Origin: an uncultured Verrucomicrobia subdivision 3 bacterium
GTDB lineage: Bacteria > Verrucomicrobiota > Verrucomicrobiia > Limisphaerales > UBA11358
NCBI GenBank assembly: GCA_903872345.1
Contig: CAIQKM010000074.1
Span: 54,592-118,591, forward strand
Direction: 5' to 3'
Length of the DNA: 64,000 nucleotides
A program made the position numbers and the translations under genes. Below the pieces are notes generated by a model. That model did no database searches and was not told the origin of the DNA. It saw only the letters and a program-made list of their open reading frames with translations. Every line of letters starts with the position of its first letter. Positions within the stretch are counted from its first letter, which is position 1. This document shows, in pieces, positions 10,889-19,775 of the stretch.

Positions 10889-11437
10889 ATGAATAGAAGC
10901 AAATTCCTCCTGATCCTCACCCTGCTCGTCCTCGGCGGTCTGCCGCTGATGGCCCAACAAAAACGCGTCAGCCCGCATGAAACCGTCAGCGCCAACCTCG
11001 ACGGCAGCCGGGTAATCATTGTTTATGGTCGTCCTTACACCAAGGCCCCCAAGACCGGTGAAGTGCGCAAGATCTGGGGCGGCTTGGTTCCCTACGGCAA
11101 AGTCTGGCGCACGGGCTCCGACGAAGCCACGCTGCTCATCACCCAGAAACCGCTCGTTATCGGTGAAACCACCGTTCCGGCCGGAGCTTACAGTCTCTAT
11201 ACCCTGCCCAACGAAGATGGCACGGCCAAGCTGATCATCAACAAGCAGATCGGCCAATGGGGCACCCAATACGACGAAAGCCAGGATCTGGCGCGGGTGG
11301 ACCTGAAAAAATCCGACCTGGAAAAGCCGGCAGACCAGTTCACCATGGCGGTGGCCAAGGGTGCCGCTGGCGGAGGCGTGATCAAGCTGATGTGGGAAAC
11401 CACGCAGTACACGGTTGACTTCACCATCCAGAAATAA
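10889..11437 (+). CDS. DUF2911 family protein
   Basis: VSPHETVSANLDGSRVIIVYGRPYTKAPKTGEVRKIWGGLVPYGKVWRTGSDEATLLIT is characteristic of DUF2911. Confidence 0.85.
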   Translation: MNRSKFLLILTLLVLGGLPLMAQQKRVSPHETVSANLDGSRVIIVYGRPYTKAPKTGEVRKIWGGLVPYGKVWRTGSDEATLLITQKPLVIGETTVPAGAYSLYTLPNEDGTAKLIINKQIGQWGTQYDESQDLARVDLKKSDLEKPADQFTMAVAKGAAGGGVIKLMWETTQYTVDFTIQK

Positions 11438-11547: not shown

Positions 11548-14052
11548 ATGACCAAATTGTTCAAGCAATCGGGCCGGCCTTTACGCCCGCTGGCCTGTCT
11601 GGCCGCCATCGGCGCGGGCTTGCTGGCCTTTTCACCCATCGGTCAGGCGGCCGAAACTCCCACGCCTGCCGCCATATTGCAGGAACTGCGCAGCTTTGAC
11701 CGCATGGGCAGCGTGCTCTACCTCGCCGCCCACCCGGATGATGAAAACACGCTCCTGATTGGCTATCTGGCCCGGGGACGGGATTATCGGACAGCCTACC
11801 TTTCCCTGACGCGCGGTGACGGCGGTCAAAACGTACTCGGCCCGGAATTCGGCGAGAAACTGGGCGTGGCCCGCACCCAGGAATTGCTCGCCGCCCGCCG
11901 GCTGGATGGCGGCCGCCAGTTCTTTTCGCGGGCCATGGATTTTGGTTTCTCCAAGGATTACCGCGAAACCTTGCGGTTTTGGGATCCGCCGCAGGTCACG
12001 GCGGATATTGTGCGGGTGATTCGCGAGTTTCATCCGGACGTGGTGGTGACCCGCTTTGCGCCCTGGCCCACCGGCACCCATGGTCATCACACCGCCTCGG
12101 CCTACCTGGCGTTGGCAGCGTTCAAGCAGGCGGGCGATCCCAAGGCGTTCCCCGAACTAAATCTCCCCCCCTGGCAACCCAAACGAATTCTTTGGAACGG
12201 TCGCGGCAATGAAACCGGTTCCAATACGGTTCATTTGGAAATCAGCGGCAGCGATCCCGTGCTCGGCATCTCCTTCAGCGACCTGGCCGGACGCAGCCGC
12301 GCGATGCACAAGACGCAGGGATTCGATAATTTTGGCAACGGCGGCGGCCGGGGCGGCGGAGCGCGGACGGAGTCGTTCCAACTGCTCGCGGGCGAACCGG
12401 CCACCAATGACATCATGGATGGCATTGACACCTCTTGGAACCGCATACCCGGCGGATCGGAAATTGGCTCGCTGGCCGACACCCTCATTTCCCAATTCAA
12501 CACCAACGATCCGGCCGCGAGCGTGCCCGTGCTGCTGAATCTGCGAAGCAAACTGGCCGGTCTGGCATCAAACGATCCAGTGGTGACGGAAAAACGCCGG
12601 CAACTGGACCACGTGTTGACCGCCTGCCTTGGGCTGGCAGTGCAAACGGAAATTCCGCAGGCCGAAGTCGTGGCGGGTGAAACGCTGGCATTGCATCACA
12701 CGGTCAGCATCGGCTCAGCCATCCCGGTGCGTTGGGTGGCCGTGCGTTATCCTGGCATTCAGCAGGAGGCGAAACAATCCACTCTCCTGACGACGAATGA
12801 CGCCAGCAGTAGTGACGCAAACGAAACTTTGCCCGCAAACACGCCGTTGAGCCAACCCTACTGGCTGCGGGAGGAATCCACGCCGGGAATGTTCCGCGTA
12901 GCGGATGCATCGCTGATCGGCCGGCCGGAAAATCCGCCGGTGTTTCCGGTGGAGTATGTATTTGAGGTGGGTGGGCAGACGTTGACCGTTCCGGATGAAC
13001 CGGTGGAAGTGATTCCCGATGCTTCCGCCAGCCGGGCACACCGCCGGATGGAAGTGATTCCGCCGGTAACGTTGCACTTTGATTCCGGCGTGGCATTGTT
13101 TGCGCCGGGATCATCGCATGTGGTGAACGTCCAAATCACCGCCACCCGCCCCGGCACCGCCGGCAATCTGCGGCTGGAAACACCGCGCGGCTGGAGCGTT
13201 ACGCCAGCCAAACAGCCCTTCCAATTCGTGGCCGCCCATGAACAGGCCAGCTTCCAGTTCACAATCACGGCACCGACGAAAACTGTCACCGGCACCGTCA
13301 CCGCCAGCGCGGAGATCGGTGGCAAGCGTTACCGGAATGACCGCGAGTTAATTGATTATCCGCACATTCCCATGCAATTGCTCCAGCCGCCGGCCACCAT
13401 CAAAGTGGTCAGCCTGAATCTGGTCACGCGCGGCAAGAATATCGGCTATCTGCCCGGCGCCGGCGACAGCCTCGCGGATAATCTCAGACAGATGGGCTGC
13501 AACGTCACCCAACTGGATGACACCAACCTGACGGCGGCGACATTGCAAGGGCTCGATGCCGTGGTCATCGGCGTCCGCGCCTTTAATGTTCGCAACAACC
13601 TAGCCAAGCAACTGCCCGTCCTGTTCAACTACGTTGAAAACGGCGGGACGGTGGTGGCGCAATACAACCGCCCCGATGGTTTGCGCGCGGCCAAGATCGC
13701 CCCGTACGACCTGCATCTCTCCGGTCTGCGCATCACGGATGAAACGGCGGCGATGACCTTTCTCGCTCCGGATCATCCGGTGTTGAACACGCCCAATAAA
13801 ATCACGGCGGCGGATTTTGACGGCTGGATTCAGGAACGCGGCATTTATTTCCCGGACAAATGGGACGCCCATTTCACTCCGATTCTGGCGGGCAACGACC
13901 CGGGTGAGACCGCCTTGCAAGGCAGTCTGCTGGTGGCACCGTATGGCAAAGGCCATTTCGTCTATACCGGCCTCGTCTTCTTCCGGGAACTGCCCGCCGG
14001 CGTGCCGGGAGCCTATCGCCTCTTCGCCAATCTGTTGTCGCTCGGCCAATGA
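11548..14052 (+). CDS. Large PIG-L family deacetylase with Ig-like middle and ThuA/GATase-like C-terminal region (834 aa)
   Basis: N-terminal AAHPDDENTLLIGYLARGRDYRTAYLSLTRGDGGQN and HTASAYLALAAF; C-terminal NIGYLPGAGDSLADNLRQMGCNVTQLDD. Confidence 0.88.
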   Translation: MTKLFKQSGRPLRPLACLAAIGAGLLAFSPIGQAAETPTPAAILQELRSFDRMGSVLYLAAHPDDENTLLIGYLARGRDYRTAYLSLTRGDGGQNVLGPEFGEKLGVARTQELLAARRLDGGRQFFSRAMDFGFSKDYRETLRFWDPPQVTADIVRVIREFHPDVVVTRFAPWPTGTHGHHTASAYLALAAFKQAGDPKAFPELNLPPWQPKRILWNGRGNETGSNTVHLEISGSDPVLGISFSDLAGRSRAMHKTQGFDNFGNGGGRGGGARTESFQLLAGEPATNDIMDGIDTSWNRIPGGSEIGSLADTLISQFNTNDPAASVPVLLNLRSKLAGLASNDPVVTEKRRQLDHVLTACLGLAVQTEIPQAEVVAGETLALHHTVSIGSAIPVRWVAVRYPGIQQEAKQSTLLTTNDASSSDANETLPANTPLSQPYWLREESTPGMFRVADASLIGRPENPPVFPVEYVFEVGGQTLTVPDEPVEVIPDASASRAHRRMEVIPPVTLHFDSGVALFAPGSSHVVNVQITATRPGTAGNLRLETPRGWSVTPAKQPFQFVAAHEQASFQFTITAPTKTVTGTVTASAEIGGKRYRNDRELIDYPHIPMQLLQPPATIKVVSLNLVTRGKNIGYLPGAGDSLADNLRQMGCNVTQLDDTNLTAATLQGLDAVVIGVRAFNVRNNLAKQLPVLFNYVENGGTVVAQYNRPDGLRAAKIAPYDLHLSGLRITDETAAMTFLAPDHPVLNTPNKITAADFDGWIQERGIYFPDKWDAHFTPILAGNDPGETALQGSLLVAPYGKGHFVYTGLVFFRELPAGVPGAYRLFANLLSLGQ

Positions 14053-14201
14053 AATCCCCGGACCCTGTTGAACCCCGGTCAGAAAGCGAAGCCACCGGAT
14101 TGCCGGGCTTTCGCACGTGGACGAAAGTTTATCTCTTCGTGCTCGGCAGCTTTGCCCTCTGGGTGGGGTTGCTGATCGCCCTGACGCTGACGTTTTCATG
14201 A
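14049..14201 (+). CDS. Small single-TM protein (50 aa), translationally coupled on both sides
   Basis: MKSPDPVEPRSESEATGLPGFRTWTKVYLFVLGSFALWVGLLIALTLTFS*. Starts in an ATGA overlap with the PIG-L stop and ends in an ATGA overlap with the SSS start at 14198. Below the length cutoff of the supplied ORF track. Confidence 0.75.
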   Translation: MKSPDPVEPRSESEATGLPGFRTWTKVYLFVLGSFALWVGLLIALTLTFS

Positions 14202-15904
14202 ACCCGCTCGATTTCATCGTCCTGATCGGCTCGATGCTGGGCATTGCCGCGTATGGCATGTGGCGGACGCGCGGGCGCCGCGATCTGAACGCCTACCTGA
14301 AAGGCGCGGGCAACACCCCGTGGTTCGCCATCGGCCTCTCGGTCATGGCCACCCAGGCCAGCGCCATCACCTTTCTTTCAACACCGGGACAGGGTTATGC
14401 GGGCGGTTTGGGTTTTGTGCAAATCTACTTCGGATTGCCGGTCGCGCTCATCATCATCGCGATCTTTTTCCTGCCCTTGTTCCGCCGGCTCAACGTATAT
14501 ACGGCGTATGAATACTTGGGGCGGCGTTTCGACGGCAAAACGCGATTGCTTGGCGCGGGACTGTTTCTCATTCAGCGCGGCCTCGGCGCGGGACTGACCA
14601 TTTATGCGCCCGCCATTGTGCTCTCCTCGGTTTTTCACTGGCCGCTCGACCTAACCATCATTTGCAGCGGGGTGTTGGTGATCATTTATACCGTCGCCGG
14701 CGGCAACGATGCGGTGACCGTCACGCAGAAATACCAGATCGCTGTCATCTTCGCGGGCATGTTCATTGCCTTCGGCCTGTTGCTGGCCAAACTGCCGACG
14801 GGTTTGAGCTTCGGCGACTCACTGGCATTGGCCGGCGGGTTTCACAAACTCGAAGCCGTCAATTTTTCTGGCAGCCTGCACGAGCGATACACCTTGTGGT
14901 CGGGGCTGCTCGGCGGCACGTTTCTAATGCTCTCCTACTTCGGCACCGACCAGTCGCAAGTACAGCGTTACCTTTCCGGCTCATCACTGCGGGAGAGCCG
15001 GCTGGGATTGATGTTTAATGCCGTGTGCAAAATCCCGATGCAATTCGGCATTCTGTTTCTGGGCGTGATGATGTTTGTCTTTTATCAGTTCGAACCGCCG
15101 CCGCTGTTCTTCAACGATACCTCCCGTCAATACCTCGCCGAACACGGCGCGAGCGAACAACTGCATGTCCTCGAAACGGACTTTAACCAAACCCATGCGG
15201 TCGCCCGCCAGCAACTCGAACAGTGGCTGACCGCCCGGCATAACGGCGATGCGGCCGGCGCACAGGCGGCTTTTGCAGCGGCCACGACGGCCCATGAGCA
15301 AGGCGAACAGATTCATGCCGCGGCCGCCAAAGCCTTGTCGGCGGCCAATCCGCACGCGACCACGAATGAGGCGGATTACGTATTCATCAGTTTCATCCTC
15401 CACTATCTGCCCCATGGCATTATCGGGCTGCTGGTGGCGGCATTTTTCGCCGCCGCGCTGTCTTCCAAAGCCGCCGAACTCACCGCCTTGGGCTCCAGCA
15501 CCACGGTGGATTTTTACCGGCACCTCAAATCCGACGCCACGGACCAGGAATGTCTGCTCGCCTCCAAATGGTTTACGGCCCTGTGGGGCGTGGTGGCGAT
15601 TGGCTTTGCCCTGTACGCGCATCTGGTGGAAAATCTGATCCAAGCGGTGAACATTCTGGGTTCCATTTTTTACGGCGTTATGCTGGGGCTTTTCGTTGTC
15701 GCATTCTTCCTGCGACGGGTGGGCGGCACGGCGGTGTTCTGGGCCGCGCTGGTGGCGCAGACCCTGGTTTTCGTGCTCTACTTCAATCTGACCATTTCCT
15801 ACCTCTGGTATCCGCTCATCGGCTGCGCGGCCTGTGTGTTCCTAAGCCTCATCTTGCAAGCCGGGTTGGGCCAAGTAAAACAAACCGACGTATCGGCCAC
15901 ATGA
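14198..15904 (+). CDS. Sodium:solute symporter (SSS family)
   Basis: MNPLDFIVLIGSMLGIAAYGMWRTRGR..., NTPWFAIGLSVMATQASAITFLSTPGQGYAGGLGFVQIYFGLP; multiple TM helices. The listed start at 14117 is an in-frame upstream extension. Confidence 0.92.
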   Translation: MNPLDFIVLIGSMLGIAAYGMWRTRGRRDLNAYLKGAGNTPWFAIGLSVMATQASAITFLSTPGQGYAGGLGFVQIYFGLPVALIIIAIFFLPLFRRLNVYTAYEYLGRRFDGKTRLLGAGLFLIQRGLGAGLTIYAPAIVLSSVFHWPLDLTIICSGVLVIIYTVAGGNDAVTVTQKYQIAVIFAGMFIAFGLLLAKLPTGLSFGDSLALAGGFHKLEAVNFSGSLHERYTLWSGLLGGTFLMLSYFGTDQSQVQRYLSGSSLRESRLGLMFNAVCKIPMQFGILFLGVMMFVFYQFEPPPLFFNDTSRQYLAEHGASEQLHVLETDFNQTHAVARQQLEQWLTARHNGDAAGAQAAFAAATTAHEQGEQIHAAAAKALSAANPHATTNEADYVFISFILHYLPHGIIGLLVAAFFAAALSSKAAELTALGSSTTVDFYRHLKSDATDQECLLASKWFTALWGVVAIGFALYAHLVENLIQAVNILGSIFYGVMLGLFVVAFFLRRVGGTAVFWAALVAQTLVFVLYFNLTISYLWYPLIGCAACVFLSLILQAGLGQVKQTDVSAT

Positions 15905-16674
15905 GCACTCCCGTCATTTGTTTTGGCCAGCAACCGTGCGGATTCTTTCCGAAACGGTTTCTCGTGGCCAAAATCCGGACGGCGCGACGGCTGCAAAAAG
16001 AGATTGGCGGGGAGATTGTCTTCTTCTGCCACGACAGCGACCATGATCCGCGCGAAACCAAAACCGGGCTGCGCCATCGCAAGACCAATGAACCGGCCTC
16101 GCTGAATTTCAGTTTCGCCAACAAGGTGCAGCGGAAGTTCACGCCGATGTATCTCAAACAAATCCCCTCGGACTGGCACGCAAAAACCTTGTTGCAACTA
16201 CCGAATTACGTCGGACATGATTTGATTGAAATTTTCAGAAAAACGTCCGCCCCGAATCATGCCGACTTTTGTCTCGCGATGTATCACGGTATGGGCTGGC
16301 TGGCAGGGATTCGTGTAGTGCGTTCCAGCGACCCAACCTTCCGGCGCGCGGCCTGTGACATTGATGACTTTTTTGTGGAAGTGCCGTATGAACAGGAAAT
16401 CGTCCGCGCGCGTTTTGCGGGTGATTCGTTCACCCTACACGAGGGCGGCAACTCATTCGTAACGCTGCCTGCCACGGCGTTCACCAAAGAACAGATCAGT
16501 CCGGCCCGCGACACGCGGCTGCGCTGGATGCAATCCGTGCTCCACTGCACGCATTACATTGCCGGGGCGGGTGAAAAAGCCTACCTTCGCACCGAAGACG
16601 CCCCGGAAATCACTTATATCAACCGCGACCCCATTGACCGCGCCGATGAAGCCTGCACCGAAATCTCCACCTGA
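15901..16674 (+). CDS. Compact BshC-like protein (257 aa), putative bacillithiol-type cysteine ligase
   Basis: MSTPVICFGQQPCGFFPKRFLVAKIRTARRLQKEIGGEIVFFCHDSDHDPRET parallels the BshC GQQ...DHD region; HYIAGAGEKAYL parallels BshC IAGPGE.xY. Lies directly upstream of bshB/bshA-like genes. ATG overlaps the SSS stop. Confidence 0.65.
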   Translation: MSTPVICFGQQPCGFFPKRFLVAKIRTARRLQKEIGGEIVFFCHDSDHDPRETKTGLRHRKTNEPASLNFSFANKVQRKFTPMYLKQIPSDWHAKTLLQLPNYVGHDLIEIFRKTSAPNHADFCLAMYHGMGWLAGIRVVRSSDPTFRRAACDIDDFFVEVPYEQEIVRARFAGDSFTLHEGGNSFVTLPATAFTKEQISPARDTRLRWMQSVLHCTHYIAGAGEKAYLRTEDAPEITYINRDPIDRADEACTEIST

Positions 16675-17383
16675 ATTGACGCCTCTGCTCGCCTTTGGCG
16701 CGCATCCCGATGATATCGAATTCGGCTGCGGCGGCGTCATCGCCAAGGAAACCCGCGCCGGCCGCCAGGTCCATCTGGTCATTTGCTCGCGCGGCGAAGC
16801 CGGTTCGCACGGCACGCCGGCCCAACGCACGGCGGAAGCCAAAAAAGCGGCGGCGATTTTGGGCGCCACCGTCGAGTTCATCAAACTGGATGGCGACGCG
16901 CATCTGGAAATCCGGCCGGCCCATGCCATCAAACTGGCGGGCCTCATTCGGCGATTGCAACCGGGCATCGTCCTTGCGCCGAGCGTGGTGGAAAACCAGC
17001 ATCCGGATCATGCCAAATTGGGCAAACTGGTTCGCGATGCGGCGCGCCTGGCCCGCTACGGCGGCCTGAAAGAATTGCGCCCGGCCAAAGCGCATGCCAT
17101 CAGCCAATTGTTCTTTTACGCGGTCACGCCGGAAGCCGAGCCGCGCGATGTTTTGCCGGTGATGCTGGACATATCCGAACCCGAAGTCATCGCGGCTTGG
17201 AGCGCGGCAATGGCGGCGCACGCGTCGCAGGTCAATGCCCGCAATTATGTGGAGCTGCAACTCACCCGCGCGCGTCTGCTGGGGGCAAGGGCCGGCATCG
17301 GTTACGCTACAGCGTTGTTTCCTAATGATCCGCTCGTGTTTGACTCACTGGCGCAGACCAGCCGCAGCGCCCGGCGTTTTTAA
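16646..17383 (+). CDS. bshB1: Bacillithiol biosynthesis deacetylase, BshB1-like (PIG-L family)
   Basis: LLAFGAHPDDIEFGCGGVIAKETRAGRQVHLVICSRGEAGSHGTPAQRTAEAKKAAAILGA; HPDHAKLGKLVRDAARLARYGGL. Confidence 0.88.
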   Translation: MKPAPKSPPELTPLLAFGAHPDDIEFGCGGVIAKETRAGRQVHLVICSRGEAGSHGTPAQRTAEAKKAAAILGATVEFIKLDGDAHLEIRPAHAIKLAGLIRRLQPGIVLAPSVVENQHPDHAKLGKLVRDAARLARYGGLKELRPAKAHAISQLFFYAVTPEAEPRDVLPVMLDISEPEVIAAWSAAMAAHASQVNARNYVELQLTRARLLGARAGIGYATALFPNDPLVFDSLAQTSRSARRF

Positions 17384-17385
17384 CC

Positions 17386-18504
17386 ATGAACATTGGCATT
17401 ACGTGTTATCCCTCGGTGGGCGGCAGCGGCATTCTGGCCACGGCGCTGGGCGAGGAGCTGGTAAAGCGCGGGCATGAGGTGCATTTCATCAGTTACGAAC
17501 GACCGTTCCGCCTGCCGGAAAATGTGCCGGGGCTATACTTCCATCCGGTAATCGTCAACGATTACGATCTGTTCAAGTATCCGGATTACACCCTGCCACT
17601 CTCAGTGAAAATGGCGGAAGTGAGCCGGGATTTTCAGCTCGATGTGCTGCACGCCCACTACGCGGTGCCGCATGCCACGGCGGCCATTCTCGCGCGGGCC
17701 ATGCTGCCGGCGGACCGCCAGCCGCGGGTGGTCACCACCCTGCACGGCACGGACACCACCCTGCTCGGTCGCGACCCGGGCTACGGACCGGCCATCCATC
17801 ACGCGCTGACGCATTCGGATGCCGTCACCGCCGTATCGGCCTTTCTCAAAGAAGAGACGCACAGCATACTCGGATTTAACGGACCGATTGAGGTCATTCA
17901 TAATTTTTTTGTGCCCAAGCCGCCCAAACGTTCACGGGAAGAAGTGCGGCGGGAGCTGGGTTTGCAGGCTGAGGCACTGCTGTTTCATTCCTCCAATTTG
18001 CGTCCCTTGAAGCGGATTGATCTCCTGTTGGAAGCCGTGGCCCGAGTGAGACCGCGCGAGTCCTTCAAACTGGTGATTCTGGCCGGCGGAGATTTTGCGC
18101 CGTTTGTCGAAGAAGTGCGCCAGTTGGGGCTGGCCGACCGGGTGATCGTCCGCGAGAAGGTCACGGACATTGAAGATTATCTGCAAGCGGCGGATTTGGG
18201 TTTGTTCACCTCGGATTCCGAAAGCTTTTGCCTGAGCATCCTGGAAGCCATGTGCTTCGGGCGACCAAGCGTCGCCCGGCGCGTGGGCGGCATTCCCGAA
18301 GTAATCGTGGACGAAGAGTCGGGTTGCCTCGTTAATTCCGATAACGCGGATGATCTGGCGCGAGCCATCGAACGACTGATTGCCGATCCGTTCCGGCGGC
18401 AGGTGCTGGGACAAGCGGCGCAGGTGCGAGCACGGCAGCTGTTTTCGGCCAAAGAAATCGTGCCCCGCTACGAAGCACTCTATCGGCGAGTCTGTGCCGA
18501 ATAA
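17386..18504 (+). CDS. bshA: N-acetyl-alpha-D-glucosaminyl L-malate synthase BshA-like glycosyltransferase
   Basis: MNIGITCYPSVGGSGILATALGEELVKRGHEVHFISYERPFRL, TTLHGTDTTLLGRDPGY, SESFCLSILEAMCFGRPSVARRVGGIPEVI. Confidence 0.92.
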   Translation: MNIGITCYPSVGGSGILATALGEELVKRGHEVHFISYERPFRLPENVPGLYFHPVIVNDYDLFKYPDYTLPLSVKMAEVSRDFQLDVLHAHYAVPHATAAILARAMLPADRQPRVVTTLHGTDTTLLGRDPGYGPAIHHALTHSDAVTAVSAFLKEETHSILGFNGPIEVIHNFFVPKPPKRSREEVRRELGLQAEALLFHSSNLRPLKRIDLLLEAVARVRPRESFKLVILAGGDFAPFVEEVRQLGLADRVIVREKVTDIEDYLQAADLGLFTSDSESFCLSILEAMCFGRPSVARRVGGIPEVIVDEESGCLVNSDNADDLARAIERLIADPFRRQVLGQAAQVRARQLFSAKEIVPRYEALYRRVCAE

Positions 18505-19775
18505 AGCGGAGCCCAATTCACATCGAAAATAAAAACGGGGGCGGCCACGGCGCGCCCGCCCCGGTCGCGGACCGCCCCGAGCTTTTCCAGGCGTTGATCC
18601 CGGGTGAGCTCCTGCCGTTGGATCTCCCCGAGCCGGTGCCAGAGGGCTTTGAGTTTGCGCCGGCGCATCGACCGTTCCTTGTGAATGCGCACGCCGCTCT
18701 CGGCCAGCACATAGACTTCGCCCGCCTGCGGCAGGAGCTTCACCCGCAGTTGCGGCCGCACTTCCTGCCAGGGTTTTGGGGCCAGCGCCTGTTCCAGTTT
18801 GGTCAGCCGGCCCTTGGGCGTGCCCACCAGATAACTCACTTTGGCGTCACTCTGCCGCAACTCCGCCAGCACCGCCTCGGTGGGGATGTCCCGGTCCATC
18901 ACCCAGATGCGTTCGGCCTGGCCGTATCGCTTTTAGATCAGCGCCAGCATGTCCTTGAGCGTGGTCTTGTCGGCCGTGTGGCCGGGGAACATCTCATAGG
19001 CCAGCGGCAGCCCCTCAGGTGTGACCACCAGCGCACGACCACCTGCACGCAGTCCGCCCGCTTGTCCCGGCTGTACCCAAACCGGCGGGGATCAGTTTCA
19101 TTTACGGCACGTCGCACTCGAAATAGGTGCTGGTCAGGTCGAGAGCAACACGTCGAACTTCGCCCCAAAGAGATCGCTCCAGCGCCCGCGCAGATGGGCG
19201 AAGAGCGCGTCCTGGTGGGCGAGCAGGTCGTCCAGACCGCGATAGAGAGTATCGTCCTGGGCGAGGCGCTCATCCACGCCCAGGAGATCGGCCAGCGCCG
19301 TGGTGCCGAACCAGTGCCGGTGCAGCCGCCATTCGCTGCCGGGCGAGAGCAGGCGGTAAAGCGTCAGCACGCGCAGCACCTTCTCCCAGTCCGTGCCTTC
19401 GCGACTGCATCCCAGGCGCGGGGCGAAAAAGGTGTCGAGTTGGAGTTCGCGCCAGAGCTCATCGCCCAGCCAGCAGGCACCCCAAGTGCGGGGCCGGGAG
19501 AGTTGCAGGTGGTCTAACCGCACTTGCACGGCGGTCGGATCGCCGGTCGCCGGGGCGTGATCTGCGGGAAAGAGCGCGCATTGGCGGGCCTGTCCCTGCG
19601 CCTCGTCAAAGACCGCGATGGACTTCTGCCAGGCGGCGCGCTGGGAGTCGTTGATCTCCCGCAGATAGAGGACGTGCCGCTGCACGACGCAGCGGCTTAC
19701 CCGACGGCTCTCCACAATGGCCCAAGAGCGATGTTCCTTGCCGTCCTGCCAGCGCGTGCTGCACTTGAGAAACAT
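18480..19775 (-). pseudogene. Degenerate IS1634-family-like transposase, broken into at least three frames
   Basis: Fragments 19134-19775 (MFLKCSTRWQDGKEHRSWAIVESRRV...), 18938-19273 and 18480-18902 (MMDRDIPTEAVLAELRQSDAKVSYLVGTPKG...) follow one another in different frames with stops between them. Confidence 0.8.

Follow-up and report, generated by a model that had tools for sequence, protein, structure and literature searches.

Does the 257-aa protein encoded directly upstream of bshB- and bshA-like genes in an uncultured Verrucomicrobia subdivision 3 bacterium supply the cysteine-adding enzyme of a bacillithiol-type pathway? A 2018 survey of thiol genes concluded that no low-molecular-weight thiol was documented or predicted for Verrucomicrobia, among other lineages, and recommended that genomes whose thiol pathways are partial or go unrecognised be studied (PMC6282198). 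A 2025 survey accepted only matches of similar length with coverage above 80% (PMC12719100), a filter that would exclude the protein described here. Canonical BshC itself was described in 2015 as an enzyme of unresolved mechanism, its activity never shown in vitro and its energy source and binding order unknown (PMC4360819). In the open-access full-text literature we found no prior description of the minimal BshC-like family.

The locus lies in a stretch of 64,000 nucleotides (the window). We consider it likely that the 257-aa protein, P0001, is a minimal, highly divergent BshC that adds L-cysteine to GlcN-malate. What the computation shows is a conserved gene whose product matches BshC in predicted fold, and which takes the place of canonical bshC in the operon and is linked to bshA. 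The cassette comprises the following features.

10889..11437, plus strand: DUF2911 protein, a frequent first member of the cassette (PF11138, 138.8 bits)
11548..14052, plus strand: PIG-L / NEW3 protein, 834 aa (PF02585, 58.6 bits; PF10633)
14198..15904, plus strand: sodium:solute symporter (TIGR00813, 200.6 bits, over the cut-off)
15901..16674, plus strand: minimal BshC-like protein (P0001), 257 aa, predicted cysteine-adding enzyme
16646..17383, plus strand: BshB-like PIG-L deacetylase, 245 aa, with AHPDD and HPDH metal-site motifs (PF02585, 87.5 bits)
17386..18504, plus strand: BshA, N-acetylglucosaminyl L-malate synthase, 372 aa (TIGR03999, 388.6 bits; cut-off 273.7)

The minimal BshC-like family

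The open reading frame of 257 codons claimed in the original prediction is borne out, with an ATG at 15901 and a TGA stop at 16672-16674. Its product starts with MSTPVICFGQQPCGFFPKRF, followed further on by HDSDHDPRET and then by HYIAGAGEKAYL. The assembly containing the window is 6.5 Mb in size and 94.6% complete; among named relatives, the closest are Verrucomicrobia subdivision 3 / Limisphaerales MAGs. A pattern-based scan of GTDB genomes recovered 293 relatives, the best 80 of which were kept for locus analysis; aligned members of the family are 54-91% identical.

In an alignment of 100 homologues, G9, Q10, Q11, K24, D47, H48, E52, G222, E225, Y228 and R242 are invariant, and 99 of the 100 have D49. 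The GQQ, DHD and late G/E/Y landmarks, which had been proposed to occur in the order known from BshC, are thus conserved across the family. The composite pattern GQQ-x12-K...DHDxxE...GxxExxY was present in 112/114 minimal-family ORFs and in 7/7 canonical BshC ORFs, and absent from 2,453 other ORFs of at least 150 residues and from 200,000 shuffles, a test that is partly circular because the pattern was written after both families had been seen. C124, C216 and H218 are also invariant in the alignment of 100 sequences, and C13 is near-invariant; these additional Cys and His residues distinguish the minimal family from canonical BshC. We do not claim a zinc site of C13, C216 and H218 as in CysRS and MshC, since C216 and H218 are found where a strand begins rather than where it ends.

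Predicted fold and relation to canonical BshC

Sequence searches with P0001 returned no match at E ≤ 1 in Pfam or NCBIfam and nothing significant in the PDB; neither of the BshC models, TIGR03998 and PF10079, recognises it. The AlphaFold2 model of P0001, built from the family alignment (pLDDT 90, pTM 0.88), is predicted to be BshC-like, the outcome that the original prediction implied. Among 350,542 PDB chains its best Foldseek match is Bacillus subtilis BshC, 4wbd (E=1.3e-10, probability 1.00, TM-score 0.61 over the query), and the next is a class I LysRS (E=1.9e-4). The Foldseek superposition on 4wbd has an rmsd of 6.9 Å over 311 alignment columns, and the two structures are therefore not closely superimposable throughout.

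Profile comparison against five canonical BshC sequences (hhalign) gave an E-value of 0.004 but a probability of 8%, over 53 columns around GQQ-DHD, the aligned stretch being exactly that from GQQ to DHDxxE. With hmmsearch the scores relating P0001 to BshC were near those of decoys and shuffles, that is, near noise. We rejected a proof of homology from sequence alone on the basis of both results. Because the sequence relation is at noise level, it is the predicted fold, the order of the motifs and the genetic evidence that carry the claim of homology to BshC.

Canonical BshC proteins are about 520-550 aa long. We compared P0001 with one of 521 aa from a Verrucomicrobiota locus (L115, the same protein as L121 9538-11100; TIGR03998, 347 bits). 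Common to P0001 and BshC, in the same order, are the predicted Rossmann-like core fold, GQQ-x12-K, DHDxxE, GxxExxY and a subsequent Arg. The distance from GQQ to the Lys is identical in the two proteins, and DHD and AGxGE are about 174 residues apart in P0001 and about 203 in the canonical protein. At the two ends, in contrast, P0001 falls short, by about 79 residues N-terminally and about 143 C-terminally; only 15 residues follow its last shared Arg, as against about 158. The P...QER..N region conserved near the C-terminus of canonical BshC is missing from P0001. BshC has a documented coiled-coil domain (PMC4360819), and we read the absent C-terminal part as this region, which serves BshC for dimerisation. 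The original description of a reduced or divergent BshC lacking the middle and coiled-coil regions thus stands as regards a divergent BshC-like core and an absent coiled coil; the middle, however, is present, and it is the N-terminal extension that is missing instead.

Gene order and the bshB- and bshA-like neighbors

The ATG of P0001 overlaps the stop codon of the symporter gene (ATGA), its reading frame runs 29 nt into the bshB-like gene (ATG 16646), and only 2 nt separate bshB from bshA. Based on this tight packing, the symporter, P0001, bshB-like and bshA genes look like one operon. Of the two downstream genes that had been called convincing, bshA is so, its product scoring well over the cut-off of its family, but the BshB-like protein has TIGR04001 (BshB1) as its top match at 140.5 bits, below the cut-off of 182.5. 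Where canonical BshC occurs, in two of the Verrucomicrobiota genomes, the gene order is methyltransferase-BshC-BshB-BshA, and P0001 therefore occupies the bshC position.

Among the best 80 of the 293 relatives, bshA is present in all 67 loci with enough downstream DNA, and bshB is adjacent to the P0001 homologue in 64 of these 67. In three loci (L039, L067, and L071) the minimal BshC gene is followed by bshA with no bshB detected in between, and the lack of a detectable bshB extends to L054 and L062, where the downstream DNA is short. Another deacetylase may therefore serve in such cassettes.

Directly before canonical bshC, at L121 8799-9557 and L122 7982-8779, is a SAM methyltransferase-like gene, possibly encoding an NmbA-type N-methyl-bacillithiol synthase judging from a family search on the L121 copy. 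Just 3' of bshA in the window, three overlapping ORFs occupy different frames of the minus strand (18480-19775); by eye they look like a broken transposase, and the two that were searched had no Pfam match. Rfam gave no match, and promoter and terminator scans no clear excess over shuffles.

Accessory genes of the cassette

Also part of the cassette, and new here, are an amidase-like PIG-L protein with an apparent signal peptide and a sodium symporter. In the 69 loci with enough upstream DNA among the best 80 of the 293 relatives, the symporter gene and the 834-aa PIG-L gene were each found in 68 and the DUF2911 gene in 58. In the order-level sample described below, the PIG-L protein occurs in the 19 genomes with P0001 homologues and in one 62%-complete genome. 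The symporter ORF opens with a GTG at 14117, its likely start being the ATG at 14198; its nearest solved relative is 5nv9, followed by SMCT1, and it is possible that it imports the GlcN-malate moiety.

The 834-aa protein has an apparent Sec signal peptide (by eye), as do many of the homologues examined, and is predicted to be an extracytoplasmic amidase. Its top NCBIfam match is Mca (mycothiol conjugate amidase), far under the cut-off, and the fold of its PIG-L domain matches chitobiose deacetylases. It shares with the Mca and Bca amidases of the PIG-L/LmbE superfamily a PIG-L domain with an HPDD motif, but is about three times longer and carries a NEW3 region as well as the apparent signal peptide. 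In known systems thiol S-conjugates are cut by Mca, and presumably by Bca, which frees the sugar part (presumably GlcN-malate for Bca) for re-use (PMC4101496).

Distribution and complementarity with canonical BshC

A protein search of 146 genomes of the order found P0001 homologues in 19, and BshA over the cut-off was encoded by exactly these 19; canonical BshC (PF10079) was found in none of the 146. Across a sample of 241 genomes of the phylum, the P0001 family was present in 14 and BshA in 16, namely these 14 and two with canonical BshC. The samples overlap only in the window's genome, giving 386 Verrucomicrobiota genomes when combined. BshA is encoded by 34 of them, 32 with the P0001 family only and two with canonical BshC only; no BshA-encoding genome in the 386 has both types or neither, and all 32 sampled genomes with the P0001 family encode BshA. 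Fisher's test on the combined samples gives a p-value of about 1e-44, in which independence is overstated as the genomes are related. Like canonical BshC, the P0001 family is represented once per BshA-encoding genome. The original prediction had named a full-length bshC elsewhere in the genome, together with an unrelated fold, as evidence against itself; a search of the window's own genome (94.6% complete) with PF10079 found none, nor did PF10079 match in 38 further genomes with the P0001 family.

Verrucomicrobia predominate in the record titles of the best 80 of the 293 GTDB relatives; Melainabacteria/Obscuribacterales and four Rokubacteria also occur. Titles of metagenome-assembled genomes are unreliable taxonomy. 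Verrucomicrobia- and Melainabacteria-type sequences fall largely apart in a tree of 100 sequences, and the Rokubacteria-titled sequences are nested inside those of Verrucomicrobia, which fits either horizontal transfer or mis-titled bins. Of 194 Cyanobacteriota genomes only the centre genome of the sample has the family, which is therefore not a general feature of the phylum. A plasmid search found no P0001 relatives.

Alternative explanations

MshC, the cysteine ligase of mycothiol synthesis, performs the analogous step in that pathway and is a known recruitment of a class I aminoacyl-tRNA-synthetase-like ligase. A HUP-type Rossmann fold is shared by MshC and the class I synthetases and predicted for P0001. 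With MshC as precedent, a class I synthetase-like ligase might have been recruited here independently of BshC, in which case cysteine ligation would still be possible, and the LysRS in second place among the Foldseek matches and the near-noise sequence profiles agree with such convergence. We regard it as unlikely given that the E-value puts BshC about six orders of magnitude ahead of LysRS and that P0001 has the identical GQQ-x12-K spacing and the motif order of BshC. The match to class I synthetases is the weaker one, MshC is not among the matches listed, and the neighbors of P0001 have far higher scores for BshA and BshB than for MshA and MshB.

The fold could also be that of BshC and the reaction another, the ligase attaching a group other than cysteine or using a modified sugar, with some other small molecule, possibly no thiol, as the product. 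Such a change of product would be in keeping with the score of the BshB-like protein under the BshB1 cut-off, the failure to find the usual bacillithiol reductase and bacilliredoxin families (see below), the extra invariant Cys and His residues and near-invariant C13, and the genes that the cassette has beyond those of the canonical operon; yet BshA is well over its equivalog cut-off, the BshC landmarks are kept and the gene order is that of the canonical operon, and we think it improbable. Very unlikely, in our judgment, is that the BshC-like fold serves another step of the cassette, such as processing an imported conjugate, while the true cysteine ligase goes unrecognised elsewhere in the genome. 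The ligase role of P0001 is a prediction and its homology is invisible to sequence profiles, which leaves room for this reading, but in the sampled genomes that encode BshA the P0001 family and canonical BshC replace each other without exception, and the gene sits where the operon has bshC. P0001 probably works like BshC and derives from it, but lies outside the sequence family as currently defined.

Proposed pathway

We infer the ligation reaction of P0001, the amino acid used and the product as follows. BshA, as an above-cut-off member of its family, would make GlcNAc-malate, which the BshB-like protein, a top match below the cut-off, may deacetylate. Judging from fold, motifs and genetics, P0001 would then join L-cysteine to the amine of GlcN-malate, yielding bacillithiol or a close relative. 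These data suggest that Verrucomicrobia and some other uncultured bacteria with the P0001 family make a bacillithiol-type compound, and the cassette provides a specific, testable thiol prediction that covers part of the Verrucomicrobiota as well as genomes titled Melainabacteria. If P0001 is a natural BshC of 257 residues, the coiled coil is dispensable and the candidate catalytic residues are narrowed to the few common to both families.

The presence of the PIG-L amidase-like protein and the sodium symporter suggests synthesis plus recycling, a proposal we make because Mca and presumably Bca free re-usable sugar from thiol S-conjugates. The extracytoplasmic PIG-L protein may cleave exported bacillithiol conjugates, and the symporter may bring GlcN-malate back for re-ligation by the minimal BshC. 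The YpdA-type bacillithiol disulfide reductase (TIGR04018) was found in none of the 146 genomes of the order, with positive results in the Bacillus subtilis, Thermus and Deinobacterium controls; this reductase need not occur in every bacillithiol producer. The bacilliredoxins BrxA/B (PF06491) are absent from the window's genome, which is weak evidence because B. subtilis was the sole positive control. Since neither was found, downstream use of the thiol would differ from that of Bacillus. We tentatively propose, as a possibility rather than an expectation, a self-contained thiol economy in Verrucomicrobia and Melainabacteria-related lineages, in which a coiled-coil-free minimal BshC makes bacillithiol or a new relative and the extracytoplasmic PIG-L amidase and sodium symporter recover GlcN-malate from exported conjugates, instead of the cytoplasmic recycling genes and the reductase genes that are usual.

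The cassette PIG-L protein has plasmid relatives in Alphaproteobacteria (about 31-37% identical) and Deinococcus (29% identical over the PIG-L part). A sugar ABC transporter, a ROK gene and an argininosuccinate-lyase-family gene lie alongside in six of the seven plasmid loci viewed. The plasmid PIG-L loci are as follows.

L125, 1-8361
L126, 70-8337
L127, 3445-12756
L129, 86-8307
L130, 1-8361
L131, 1-8340

These loci are possibly catabolic for bacillithiol or GlcN-malate, in which case the lyase would release fumarate.
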